Source of the DNA: a virus
IMG/VR virus record: IMGVR_UViG_3300042327_001430
Location: 1-42,318 of that record
DNA: 42,318 nt
Direction: 5' to 3' (one strand)
Shown: in pieces, positions 9,946 to 42,318 of the stretch
Numbering within the stretch: the first letter of the stretch is position 1
How the letters are laid out: each line of letters begins with the position of its first letter
Position numbers and translations under genes: made by a program
The notes under the pieces: generated by a model
Databases searched by the model: none
What the model saw: the letters and a program-made list of their open reading frames with translations, nothing else
Told to the model about the DNA's origin: nothing

Positions 9946-11187
9946 ATGAAAGAAAACACAAAAAAAGAAACATTGTCAAATCTTGTTGTTGAGCATTTGA
10001 AGCCTTCGGATTTGGCGCCATATAAAAATAACGCGAAAAAGCACGACGCTGCTCAAATCTCAAAGTTGTGTGGAAGTATAAAAGAATTCGGCTTTAACAA
10101 CCCCGTCCTCATCGACAAGGACAACGGCATCATCGCCGGTCACGGTCGCGTGCTTGCCGCTCAATCCCTCGCCCTCGAGTCCGTCCCCTGCATCCGCCTC
10201 GGCCACCTCACCGACACCCAGCGCCGAGCCTACATCCTCGCCGACAACCGCCTCGCCGAGATCGGCGGCGGGTGGGATGAGGAAATGCTCAAGCTCGAGC
10301 TGGCGGATCTCGCCTCCTTGGATGTCGATGTCGCCGAGATTGGATTCGGCGCTGAAGACCTCGCCGAGCTGGAGATGGAAGAAGAGGCGGAAAAATCAGA
10401 CGCCGACGCCGAGCCACAGATCGACAAGGCCGAAGAACTCCGCGCCAAGTGGGGCGTCGAGCCAAGGCAACTTTGGGAGCTTGGCGACCATCGGTTGCTG
10501 TGTGGCGACTCCACGATCCCCGAGCATGTGGCAAAACTCATGGGCGGAGAGAAGGCTGAAATGGTTTTTAGCGATCCTCCATATGCTTTGTTTGGAAATT
10601 CAACCGGAGTCCATGGCATTGCCGACGATAAAATGGTTCGCCCATTTTTTCGTGATATTGGCCGCGCCAGCGTTGAATGGGTTGAAAACTTTGGCCATGT
10701 CTATTTGTGCTGCGATTGGCACACAGCGTTTGTTATTCAATCCGTAATTACAGAAGTTGGTCTGACCGCAAAAAATTTGTGTGTATGGGACAAGGGCGAT
10801 GGGGGCATCGGTGCAAACTATCAGCAGTGCTATGAGTTAATTTGGTTTTTTACAAACTCGCCGCGAGCCAAAGGCACTCTGGCAAAAAAAGAAGCTGGAG
10901 AGAAAACAGTCAACGGAGTGCCAAACATTTGGCGCTTTCCTCGCGTTCAAAGTAACAGAATCCACAATGCAGAAAAGCCTGTTGGAATGGTGAGCGTTCC
11001 AATCACAAATGGCAGTAAGCCGGGCAACATCGTTTTAGATTTTTTCTCGGGAAGCGGAACGGCTCTAATGGCCTGCGAGCAACTTGGCCGCAAATGCCGC
11101 GCCATCGAAATCTCGCCCGCTTATGTCGCCGTGGCGATCCAGCGATGGGCAGACGCCACCGGCAAAGAACCCAAGCGCCTCGCATGA
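9946..11187 (+). CDS. ParB-like nuclease domain / DNA methyltransferase fusion
   Basis: A 413-residue fusion. Residues about 8-110 are a ParB/sulfiredoxin-like domain (IIAGHGRVLAAQSL, then VPCIRLGHLTDTQRRAYILA), and an acidic linker follows. Residues about 185-405 form an amino-methyltransferase with DPPY at 210-213 and the AdoMet-binding LDFFSGSGTA near 364-373. Catalytic motif before AdoMet motif is the beta-class order, which modifies adenine-N6 or cytosine-N4. It probably protects phage DNA from host restriction or marks it for packaging. Composition is patchy: bases 9946-10095 and about 10555-11050 are AT-richer than 10095-10550. Its TGA overlaps the terminase ATG. Confidence 0.9.
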   Translation: MKENTKKETLSNLVVEHLKPSDLAPYKNNAKKHDAAQISKLCGSIKEFGFNNPVLIDKDNGIIAGHGRVLAAQSLALESVPCIRLGHLTDTQRRAYILADNRLAEIGGGWDEEMLKLELADLASLDVDVAEIGFGAEDLAELEMEEEAEKSDADAEPQIDKAEELRAKWGVEPRQLWELGDHRLLCGDSTIPEHVAKLMGGEKAEMVFSDPPYALFGNSTGVHGIADDKMVRPFFRDIGRASVEWVENFGHVYLCCDWHTAFVIQSVITEVGLTAKNLCVWDKGDGGIGANYQQCYELIWFFTNSPRAKGTLAKKEAGEKTVNGVPNIWRFPRVQSNRIHNAEKPVGMVSVPITNGSKPGNIVLDFFSGSGTALMACEQLGRKCRAIEISPAYVAVAIQRWADATGKEPKRLA

Positions 11188-37140: not shown

Positions 37141-37150
37141 AGCTAAAATC

Positions 37151-37168
37151 GGGTAACAGCGGGTAACA
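37151..37168. repeat. attP arm-type repeats, left (2 x GGGTAACA)
   Basis: GGGTAACA at 37151-37158 and 37161-37168, 10 bp apart (one helical turn). The same octamer recurs three times on the other side of the tRNA-like core. Integrase arm sites or excisionase sites usually flank attP cores in this way. Confidence 0.6.
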
Positions 37169-37206
37169 GCTACGCAAGCCGTTGATTTACAAACACCCAA
37201 AACAGA

Positions 37207-37260
37207 CTTAAAATCCCTTATTCCGAAAGGAGTGTGCGGGTTCGAGTCCCGCCGCCGGCA
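37207..37260 (+). other. attP core: 3' part of tRNA-Leu(UAA)
   Basis: The sequence CTTAAAATCCCTT (37207-37219) is the anticodon loop and 3' anticodon stem of tRNA-Leu(UAA). It is followed by a long variable arm, T-arm GTGCGGGTTCGAGTCCCGC (37234-37252) and acceptor end CGCCGGCA. The bases before 37207 do not pair as a tRNA 5' half, so only the 3' part is carried. Integration here would restore a complete host tRNA-Leu. The crossover is expected in the anticodon loop, as with many tyrosine integrases. CCA is not encoded (CT follows). Confidence 0.8.
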
Positions 37261-37266
37261 CTGGGG

Positions 37267-37310
37267 TGGAGGGCTTCTTTAGCCCTCCAGGTGCGGGTTG
37301 GCGGGTTTTT
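37267..37310 (+). terminator. Hairpin downstream of attP
   Basis: TGGAGGGC (37267-37274) pairs with GCCCTCCA (37282-37289), and a GCGGGTTTTTG run follows at about 37301-37311. It may be a terminator for late read-through or the one carried over from the host tRNA gene. Confidence 0.5.
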
Positions 37311-37369
37311 GTTATTACTACTCTTTGCCACTTCTCAATACTTCAAAAAGCGTTTTTTGTTGAGAAATC

Positions 37370-37398
37370 GGGTAACACGGGTAACAGTTCGGGTAACA
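37370..37398. repeat. attP arm-type repeats, right (3 x GGGTAACA)
   Basis: GGGTAACA at 37370-37377, 37379-37386 and 37391-37398. The last copy ends on the A of the start codon of the excisionase-like gene, so binding there could also repress that gene and the integrase. Confidence 0.6.
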
Positions 37399-37601
37399 TG
37401 AAAGGCACGATCACCGTCAAGGAAGCCGCCGAGTTAACCGGAGCCTGCGTCTGGACGATCAAGCAGCACATTTACAAAGGCTCGTTCTCGGCCTGCAAGC
37501 CACTGGGCAATCGTGGTGGATGGAGGATTTTTACTGAGTCTTTCAACCAATGGTGGGCGGGACGGATCGGCGAGACCTCAAACAAAAGGCCCGCGAAATG
37601 A
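37398..37601 (+). CDS. Excisionase-like HTH protein, copy 1
   Basis: A 67-residue MerR/Xis-like winged HTH: TITVKEAAELTGACVWTIKQ, then HIYKGSFSACKPLGNRGG and the W-R-I-F strand. It is about two-thirds identical to the protein at 39348-39551, with the same length and the same C-terminal pattern (TSN(K/R)RPAK). Located between attP and int, overlapping int by ATGA, it is the natural directionality factor. The longer upstream frame from 37266 is att DNA, not gene. Confidence 0.78.
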   Translation: MKGTITVKEAAELTGACVWTIKQHIYKGSFSACKPLGNRGGWRIFTESFNQWWAGRIGETSNKRPAK

Positions 37602-38623
37602 AAGCCCGATACTTTGTTACTCCACACACGGCACGACCCGGCACTTGGAAGTTGGAAATTCCGGCGTCGGTGTCGGGCAGCAGGATCAAGAGGTTTTTTA
37701 AGACGGAGGCGGAGGCTTGGGCGGCGGGGCCAGCGCTCTTGGAGACACTGCAAAAAAGTGGGACGGACGGACTGAAGGAGAAAGGGCAGGCGGGGCTTTC
37801 GATGCGGTCGGCGATTCGGGATTACATTGCGACGAAGGCCAAATCCTCGGAGGAGCACAAGTCAAAGGTCGAGCGGGTTTGCGGCAAGCTACTGGAGGCG
37901 TTCGATGGGCCGGTGGCGAATGTGACTCCGTTGAAAGCAGGGAAGTGGTTTGACGGCATCGAAGGTTCACCGACGACACGGGCGGGCTGGCATCGCTACG
38001 CGAGCGGGTTCTTTGCTTGGTGCGTCGATATGGAGCTACTGGACCGGAATCCGCTGCGGAGGATACGAGCGCCAAAGGCAGAGGCCAAGCGGTCGCTCGT
38101 CACAGCGGCAGAGATGGCGACGATATTGGACGAGGAGATGAGCGATGAGCTGCGGGCGTGGTTTCTCCTCGGAGGCTTTGCGGGGCTTCGGTCTATCGAG
38201 GTGCGGCGGATGCGGTGGGAAGATATTGACGCGGCACGGGGAGAGATCGAGGTGCGGCGGGAGGTTTCAAAACAGAGCACCGGACTGCCGGAGCGCATTG
38301 TCGATTTCACGGAGCCGCTGACCAAGCGGGCGGCATTCTTTCAAGACGCTCAAAAGAAGGGTTTGATTTTGCCACCGGCATCGCTGCGCATTTATCAAGA
38401 GCGCCAAGCGCTCATCAGGCGGCTTCACGACGAGGGCAAGGTTCCGTGGTCGCAGTTCCCTGAGAACGCCCTGCGGCATTCGTTCGCTACCTATCACCTG
38501 GGGCGTGGTCAGGACGCAGGAAAGACCGCTCACCAGCTTGGACACTCGACGACAGCAATGGTGAAACGGGTCTATGCCGTGCCATCGAGGCGGGCAGATT
38601 GGCGGGCTTGGTGGGCCGTTTAA
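37598..38623 (+). CDS. int: Tyrosine integrase
   Basis: A 341-residue site-specific recombinase. The N-terminal part holds a small DNA-binding segment and a core-binding domain (about 65-155). In the catalytic domain, R198 lies in FAGLRSIEVRRM, a Lys near 225, R293 in NALRHSFATYH, H316 in QLGHSTTAM, and the nucleophile Y326 in VKRVYAVPS. The first His of the usual HxLR box is Asn (N290), a variant I associate with integrases from PVC-group and related genomes. It integrates at the tRNA-Leu 3' end just upstream. The start at 37598 overlaps the Xis-like stop. Confidence 0.93.
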   Translation: MKARYFVTPHTARPGTWKLEIPASVSGSRIKRFFKTEAEAWAAGPALLETLQKSGTDGLKEKGQAGLSMRSAIRDYIATKAKSSEEHKSKVERVCGKLLEAFDGPVANVTPLKAGKWFDGIEGSPTTRAGWHRYASGFFAWCVDMELLDRNPLRRIRAPKAEAKRSLVTAAEMATILDEEMSDELRAWFLLGGFAGLRSIEVRRMRWEDIDAARGEIEVRREVSKQSTGLPERIVDFTEPLTKRAAFFQDAQKKGLILPPASLRIYQERQALIRRLHDEGKVPWSQFPENALRHSFATYHLGRGQDAGKTAHQLGHSTTAMVKRVYAVPSRRADWRAWWAV

Positions 38624-38671: not shown

Positions 38672-38684
38672 CCCCCCCCCCCCC
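38672..38684. repeat. Poly-C tract of 13
   Basis: Thirteen C residues in the 96-base gap between the convergent integrase and the - strand regulator. No hairpin or other gene is seen in the gap. The exact length of such a run is unreliable in short-read assemblies. Confidence 0.7.
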
Positions 38685-39158: not shown

Positions 39159-39187
39159 CGGTAGCACCAATAATATCGGTAGCACCA
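39159..39187 (+). promoter_or_regulatory. Direct-repeat operator at the start of the rightward early operon
   Basis: CGGTAGCACCA occurs at 39159-39169 and 39177-39187, 18 bp apart; the second copy touches the ATG at 39187. A looser match (CAGTAACACCG) is at 39023-39033 near the opposite regulator. A possible -10 box TAATAT (39171-39176) lies between the two copies, so a bound protein would block transcription. Confidence 0.52.
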
Positions 39188-39351
39188 TGCAAACCGCATA
39201 CATGAAAACGAGTGTGAGCATCCCGGCTGAACTCTTCGACTACCTGAAGAAAAAAGCCGATGCGAACGGAGGAGTGCCAATAAGCCGGTTGGTTGCTGAA
39301 GCCATCCGCCAGCAAGCAAAGAAGGAAGCAAAACGGGAGGCCGCGAAATGA
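39187..39351 (+). CDS. Small ribbon-helix-helix protein, first gene of the early operon
   Basis: A 54-residue protein (49 if it starts at ATG 39202). MKTSVSIPAELFDYLKKKAD followed by PISRLVAEAIRQQAKKEAKR is a classic CopG/Arc-like fold: strand, helix, helix. Such dimers bind direct repeats of about 10 bp such as those overlapping its own start. It faces the divergent regulator at 38720-39016, forming a two-repressor switch. GGGAGG in its last codons serves the next gene. Confidence 0.72.
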   Translation: MQTAYMKTSVSIPAELFDYLKKKADANGGVPISRLVAEAIRQQAKKEAKREAAK

Positions 39352-39551
39352 AAGGCACGATGACCGTTCGCCAAGCCGCCGAGCAAACCGGCGCGCATAA
39401 AGAAACAATCCTTCGCCACATTCGGCGCGGAAGTTTTTCGGCCTGCAAGCCGCTCGCAAATAAAGGCGGCTGGAGGATTTTTCAGGCGTCATTCCAGAAC
39501 TGGATGTCTGACCAGATCGGCGCGACCTCGAACCGGAGGCCCGCCAAATGA
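39348..39551 (+). CDS. Excisionase-like HTH protein, copy 2
   Basis: A 67-residue paralogue of the protein at 37398. Shared parts include the MKGT(I/M)TV start, SFSACKPL, GGWRIF and the TSNxRPAK end. Differences cluster in the recognition helix (TGAHKETILRHIRR against TGACVWTIKQHIYK), so the two probably bind different sites. In the early operon it would act as a regulator rather than a directionality factor, or the reverse. Confidence 0.75.
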   Translation: MKGTMTVRQAAEQTGAHKETILRHIRRGSFSACKPLANKGGWRIFQASFQNWMSDQIGATSNRRPAK

Positions 39552-41981: not shown

Positions 41982-42318
41982 ATGCCAACCCTTGCCGAAA
42001 TCCTCGCCAAGAAAGCGGCCAAAACTTTTCAACTCAAACAAGAGGAGGAAGTTATTCTGACACCCGAAGGGCCGCATTATGCCAAGCTTGTCGGTGCGGA
42101 TGGGAGGTTCATTAAATGGCTTCCAAAACCCGAGACAACCGGCCTCAAGATCACGCCGGACAGCGAAAAGGCAGACCTCGCTGCCAGCATTAAGCAGGGA
42201 CTCGACGCCTGCGCCCCAAAAGTCAAACCCCCGGCTCCACGCGAGTTGGGGGCATTGACCCTCGGGGAGCGCGTTCCAATGGATCAACCAAAGGAGGGAG
42301 CACCAGCAGCGGAGTGGG
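41982..42318 (+). CDS. Hypothetical protein, N-terminal part of the junction-spanning gene
   Basis: ATG 41982 lies one base after the previous stop. The first residues MPTLAEILAKKAAKTFQLKQ form a helix, then EEVILTPEGPHYAKLVGADG and a Pro-rich linker (KVKPPAPREL). The frame runs through the 127-base terminal repeat and continues at position 1 of the window to TAA 292-294, giving about 167 residues. Function unknown; it belongs to the block that leads into the PIF1-like helicase. Confidence 0.78.
   Translation, partial: MPTLAEILAKKAAKTFQLKQEEEVILTPEGPHYAKLVGADGRFIKWLPKPETTGLKITPDSEKADLAASIKQGLDACAPKVKPPAPRELGALTLGERVPMDQPKEGAPAAEW
42192..42318. repeat. Terminal direct repeat, right copy
   Basis: Exact copy of 1-127. 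Trimming one copy closes the genome at 42,191 bp and restores the open frame of the junction gene. Confidence 0.93.

Follow-up and report, generated by a model that had tools for sequence, protein, structure and literature searches.

The window, a complete virus record of 42,318 bases that was analysed as a whole, very probably carries the attP of a lambda-type tyrosine integrase that targets the host tRNA-Leu(UAA) gene. A 127-base direct terminal repeat (positions 1–127 and 42192–42318) is consistent with a circular, complete genome, and the evidence taken together is best explained, with high confidence, by a temperate circular phage of freshwater Spartobacteria (Verrucomicrobia). In the mechanism that we propose, the N-terminal beta-sheet domain of the integrase would bind arm repeats of the word GGGTAACA and its other domains would bind the core. 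Held on arms and core at once, the integrase would bend attP, with the 220-bp arm spacing setting the geometry of the complex. Recombination would then join the anticodon-loop end of the core to its counterpart in the host tRNA-Leu(UAA) gene, where the phage copy of the 3′ part would restore an intact tRNA. Integration would leave the two left repeats at attR, while the three right repeats and (xis-)int would come to lie at attL, directly downstream of the intact tRNA.

The attP core (37205–37260, + strand) spans the 3′ part of tRNA-Leu(UAA) from the anticodon stem/loop to the discriminator base and is identical to the corresponding part of intact tRNA-Leu(UAA) genes of Spartobacteria. The preliminary description, made from the window alone, had recognized this tRNA part but placed its start at 37207; the assignment stands, while the start does not, as identity begins two bases earlier, at G37205. 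The block shared by phage and host runs from GAC at 37205 through the discriminator base 37260 and the next C, and upstream of 37205 the two sequences are wholly different. The 5′ side had been described as unpaired, and we found the same: ARAGORN detected no complete tRNA in the window, and the Rfam tRNA model gave the core 19.8 bits against a cutoff of 29, because only the 3′ half of a tRNA fits and the 5′ half does not. As everything between the crossover and the 3′ end of the tRNA has to be supplied by this block, the most likely place of crossover is its left end, where comparison of attP, attR and attB points to the anticodon loop CTTAAAA (37207–37213, +) as the probable 7-bp overlap of strand exchange.

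The tRNA segment had also been proposed as a direct pointer to the host, which proved sound and narrow. A search for bacterial tRNA-Leu(UAA) genes ending in exactly this sequence found the 56-base core in 5 genomes out of 213 from a single Verrucomicrobia order; among 388 genomes sampled from the phylum, it turned up in one, already among those five. Variant cores of related phages, such as TTTTCGCGAAAGCGGAG, are present in two genomes of the same order. The 53-base stretch 37208–37260 occurs exactly in 11 IMG/VR contigs, nearly all of them phages with this integrase; with a one-base ambiguity allowed, it was found on ten genome contigs, all from Verrucomicrobia (Spartobacteria, Chthoniobacter, Terrimicrobiaceae and a few others), and ARAGORN calls an intact tRNA-Leu(UAA) at each of these ten places. 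Thus, the pointer works, as an intact host gene with the exact 3′ end exists in a narrow group only. The first 25 kb of the window had no nucleotide match in a phage collection, and a search of a paper library for temperate phages of Spartobacteria, and for integrases at tRNA-Leu in Verrucomicrobia, found no account of a phage like this one. A hostless circular phage from metagenomes, along with dozens of its relatives, would in this way be assigned to a narrow group of uncultured freshwater Spartobacteria.

Prophages at this tRNA-Leu(UAA) were sought, as had been suggested earlier, and a related phage ends exactly there. Viral contig L002 runs from phage DNA through two left arm repeats and the core into about 0.8 kb of host-like DNA, the arrangement of an attR. 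Over 836 bp including the core, it shows 75% identity with the DNA that follows tRNA-Leu(UAA) in the Spartobacteria genome L035, and the same host-side DNA is 70% identical to the region downstream of tRNA-Leu in L036. An attP-bearing, non-integrated phage, L007, shares about 90% identity with L002 over several kilobases; the match stops exactly at the 3′ end of the core, after which L007 continues into the right arm and int. Judged by their sequences, L007, L002 and L035 are attP, attR and attB side by side, and the attR junction is proof of integration in this close relative.

Phages do carry tRNA genes and remnants of them, and the tRNA piece might accordingly be a decayed phage-borne tRNA gene with no role in integration. 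We consider this hardly conceivable, as it is contradicted by the L002 attR junction with its matching attB flank. The fragment, moreover, starts at the anticodon stem/loop and sits between the arms in every case, and more distant relatives have another tRNA, Leu-CAA or Ser-CGA, at the same place.

An attL with tRNA-Leu(UAA) was seen only at L059, a more distant locus in which the integrase frame is broken. An intact tRNA-Leu, as expected at an attL of the window's own subclade, was sought in viral contigs and none was found; IMG/VR contigs have had host DNA trimmed away, and the genomes searched for attL are mostly fragmented MAGs. Both prophage ends could be recovered from one genome of a more distant relative (G096), on two contigs: attL (L148) comprises a complete tRNA-Ser(CGA), GGACACA repeats and int, and attR (L150) comprises GGACACA-type repeats and the 3′ tRNA half. 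Another genome of 2.5 Mb, G214, contains six integrases of the family (L054, L059, L061, L062, L063 and L064) adjoining different tRNAs (Ser-CGA, Leu-UAA, Leu-UAG, Arg-ACG, Arg-UCU and one read by eye as Tyr), each locus with a repeat word of its own and at least two with broken reading frames (L059 and L064). When G214 was searched for the same tRNA-Leu(UAA) end as an attR, the attL copy alone was found.

The core is flanked by five direct copies of GGGTAACA, all on the + strand: L1 (37151–37158) and L2 (37161–37168) in the left arm, and R1 (37370–37377), R2 (37379–37386) and R3 (37391–37398) in the right arm. These are the only copies in the 42,318 bases and they all lie within 248 bases around the core; 0.30 copies are expected by chance, and five were reached in none of 100 shuffles. 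Start-to-start distances are 10 bp for L1–L2, 9 bp for R1–R2 and 12 bp for R2–R3, in agreement with the earlier count of two octamers on the left and three on the right, about 9–12 bp apart.

To see this layout in relatives, 77 distinct loci, mostly phage attP sites and each comprising the integrase with the region upstream of it, were taken from viral contigs and Chthoniobacterales-type genomes. Among the 66 loci with a full recognizable repeat set, many of which are closely related so that the counts are not independent, L1–L2 is 10 bp in all 66, R1–R2 is 9 bp in 65, and L1–R1 is 219–222 bp in all 66, mostly 220 bp and close to 21 helical turns. R3 lies 11–13 bp beyond R2 and ends at, or a few bases from, a start codon. 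The position of L1 is conserved in relatives, and the spacing is rigid across loci though the spacer sequence has turned over; it is fixed also in members with 44–60% integrase identity. Cores vary with distance: relatives at 59–95% integrase identity have tRNA-Leu(UAA), a clade at 49–52% together with L053 and L055 has a core read by eye as tRNA-Leu(CAA), and that of L058 was read as tRNA-Ser(CGA). In genomes, complete tRNAs standing directly before the integrase at attL include Leu-UAA, Leu-UAG, Ser-CGA, Arg-ACG, Arg-UCU and Asn. In several relatives the left flank switches abruptly at the arm, so that attP behaves as an exchangeable module. The longest similarity between the window and L002 likewise runs from the left arm to the core end (116 bp at 96% identity, window 37147–37262 against L002 12921–13036).

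The adjoining integrase gene (37598–38623, +) encodes 341 amino acids with a predicted N-terminal beta-sheet domain (residues 1–60) and a catalytic domain. Its start had been set at 37550; comparison with relatives moves it to 37598 (MKARYFV...), where the ATG overlaps the stop codon of a gene for an excisionase (Xis)-like protein. The protein matches PF00589 and has the catalytic arginines and the nucleophilic tyrosine of tyrosine-recombinase phage integrases. The catalytic residues are R198, K225, R293, H316 and Y326; R198 and K225 are conserved in 77 of 77 members, R293 and Y326 in 75 of 75 aligned rows, and H316 in 73. At residue 290 (window 38465–38467) all 75 aligned members have Asn instead of the His of the HxxR motif. 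This His position varies in accepted tyrosine recombinases and was hence not taken as defining. The AlphaFold2 model of the full integrase (mean pLDDT 75, pTM 0.48) finds full-length lambda Int (1z1b) as its best match. Models of the N-terminal domain have strands at 6–9, 17–21 and 30–34 and a helix at 37–54. With this domain alone, Foldseek returned no significant match, and VIA-align placed AP2 DNA-binding domains first (6sy0, Z 5.2) and third (7wq5, Z 4.3), both of them weak matches. Sequence and models together suggest a putative lambda-type (heterobivalent) integrase whose N-terminal domain binds arm sites.

The arm repeats themselves change between phages. Copies within one site share a word, and the word differs from phage to phage: the window and seven near relatives have GGGTAACA and most others have GGGCAACA, while the word is GGCACAAG for the Leu-CAA clade and GGACAACA for L058. 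We compared 14 close relatives with integrases 86–95% identical, divided into a T-word (GGGTAACA) and a C-word (GGGCAACA) group. Four of the 94 variable integrase residues separate the groups perfectly (8 T/S, 10 H/N, 24 S versus A/V and 31 K/R), and all four are within residues 1–35 (hypergeometric, 1e-4). The AlphaFold2 models place residues 8 and 31 on strands and residues 10 and 24 beside them. On the DNA side, five of nine variable arm columns between L1 and R3 segregate with the word, compared with two of 118 outside the arms (Fisher, 1e-5), both of which are directly beside L1. Bases 37164 (L2), 37373 (R1), 37382 (R2) and 37394 (R3) segregate with the type of N-terminal domain. In a tree of integrase residues 63–341 the T-word phages are scattered and a single GGGTAACA clade is rejected (AU p = 0.016), with most branches of this catalytic-domain tree weakly supported, which limits the independence of the arm-word switches. 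Had one linked block been exchanged, the spacer would have gone with it, and the spacer does not segregate; joint change of N-terminal domain and repeats is therefore the simplest reading, by which the domain would read the repeats.

In the preferred reading the octamers are integrase arm sites, which is supported by their conserved two-plus-three geometry, their concerted change and their segregation with N-terminal residues. Alternatively, they might be operators of a regulator, either the Xis-like helix-turn-helix (HTH) protein or a repressor, that lie close to attP by coincidence. R3 does touch a start codon as an operator may, and the neighbouring gene product is an HTH_17 protein that could bind the repeats. 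We regard this as improbable: the repeats stand on both sides of the core at a spacing fixed across diverse phages, all five are kept in most relatives though the adjacent xis copy is missing there, their word follows residues of the integrase N-terminus, and in a distant relative one word is common to the repeats of attL and those of attR.

With the repeats taken as integrase arm sites, we somewhat favour the view that the arm word and the N-terminal domain set specificity as an exchangeable pair, which has switched more than once among near-identical phages and follows a readable recognition rule. Over all loci, Arg31 goes with GGGCAACA in 54 of 54 and Lys31 with GGGTAACA in 8 of 8, from which we infer that residue 31 contacts base pair 4 of the repeat. 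Under such a rule Arg31 would correspond to C:G at repeat position 4 and Lys31 to T:A, with residues 8, 10 and 24 contributing.

The right arm runs directly into coding sequence. The Xis-like gene (37398–37601, +; 67 aa) matches HTH_17 and phrog_66 ‘excisionase and transcriptional regulator’, overlaps the int start at its stop (ATGA), and its product is a putative excisionase (RDF). The last repeat had been noticed to overlap the start of this gene, and 37391–37398 indeed shares its final A with the ATG at 37398. In most relatives the ATG at which R3 ends is that of int, and the HTH gene follows int after about 0.7 kb. The window has a gene at this usual position, too (39348–39551, +), whose Xis-like HTH product is 66% identical to the first. 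A xis copy between R3 and int was seen in about four phages, which include, besides the window, L014 and L018 and, in part, L013. It joins at the shared word ATGAAAG and so looks like a derived insertion between R3 and int.

Occupancy of the site had been proposed to be linked to int expression through the Xis-like gene. The first part of this idea fits, as nearly all relatives with an R3 have it at a start codon; its attribution to the Xis-like gene does not, since the start codon is mostly that of int and the xis copy there is derived. The last repeat may plausibly be coupled to int expression. One form of such a link, an addition to the integration model and no alternative to it, is negative autoregulation, in which integrase bound to R1–R3 would repress translation or transcription of xis-int. 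We find this reading evenly balanced. In the 54 loci with an R3, the repeat has been retained where the first gene (int or xis) begins, which is compatible with autoregulation of the kind measured for intS/attL of the E. coli prophage KplE1, where the int promoter overlaps attL and is autorepressed (PMC2951348). The same position may merely reflect compact packing of the arm against the gene; R3 is missing in some relatives, degenerate in L018 (GGGTAAAA) and displaced in L123, and the sole sigma-70-like match (37186–37214) lies in the left part of attP, which is replaced by host DNA at attL. The arrangement resembles KplE1 in that int is directly downstream of the tRNA at attL and arm sites overlap int expression signals, but in the window phage autoregulation is suggested by the start-codon position of R3 only. 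Of tRNA-associated integrases, 61.5% are predicted to be autorepressed in the same manner (PMC2951348).

Lambda has no tRNA target, the number and order of its arm sites are different, and its system includes IHF/Fis/Xis sites. What the window would share with lambda Int/attP (1z1b) is a tyrosine integrase with a separate N-terminal arm-binding domain, predicted here. The closest layout is that of the Cluster K3 mycobacteriophage Pixie, with a pair of direct arm-type repeats left of a tRNA core and three on the right (PMC3203893). Both sites combine two-plus-three direct repeats about a tRNA-derived core with an adjoining tyrosine integrase; unlike the window, Pixie has a tRNA-Lys core, a sixth, inverted site, other repeat sequences and actinobacterial hosts. 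In the K1 mycobacteriophages CrimD, Anaya and Adephagia, arm-site sequences differ and correlate with integrase residues 17 and 19 (PMC3203893), just as the arm word of the present phages varies between close relatives with N-terminal residues. The K1 covariation was proposed on four phages, whereas here it extends over 14 close relatives and dozens of distant ones and is controlled by the spacer DNA and the catalytic-domain tree.

Cluster K1 attP sites also have a putative stem-loop between the core and the right arm (PMC3203893), as does the window, with a perfect 9-bp hairpin just 3′ of the core (37267–37289, +). We considered it as a possible intrinsic terminator and rejected this, since the hairpin, though strong, is not directly followed by a U-tract and its perfect stem is not preserved in relatives; a simple test found a terminator-like element in only 15 of the 77 loci (4% in shuffles).

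The type of site is well known, and what is added is a closely delimited host group, a documented attR and a far more extensive series on arm specificity. The window's relatives make up an unusually clean natural experiment on how an integrase recognizes its own DNA repeats, a natural mutational series on the choice of arm sites by lambda-type integrases that had been limited to four phages (PMC3203893).

Several further features of the window were observed. A single ORF at 9946–11187 matches ParB-like partition/nuclease families over residues 13–160 and DNA methyltransferase families over residues 150–407. A run of 13 C just after int (38672–38684) may be a hypermutable tract or may have arisen in assembly. 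A small protein read as ribbon-helix-helix type is encoded at 39187–39351, before the downstream xis gene and with an ATGA overlap. Two direct repeats GGTAGCACC (39160–39168 and 39178–39186) end at the start codon of the ribbon-helix-helix gene itself, and relatives have other repeat words at this place (GTGCACC, TTGGTATGACC), which suggests that a second system of operator words may evolve like the arm words.
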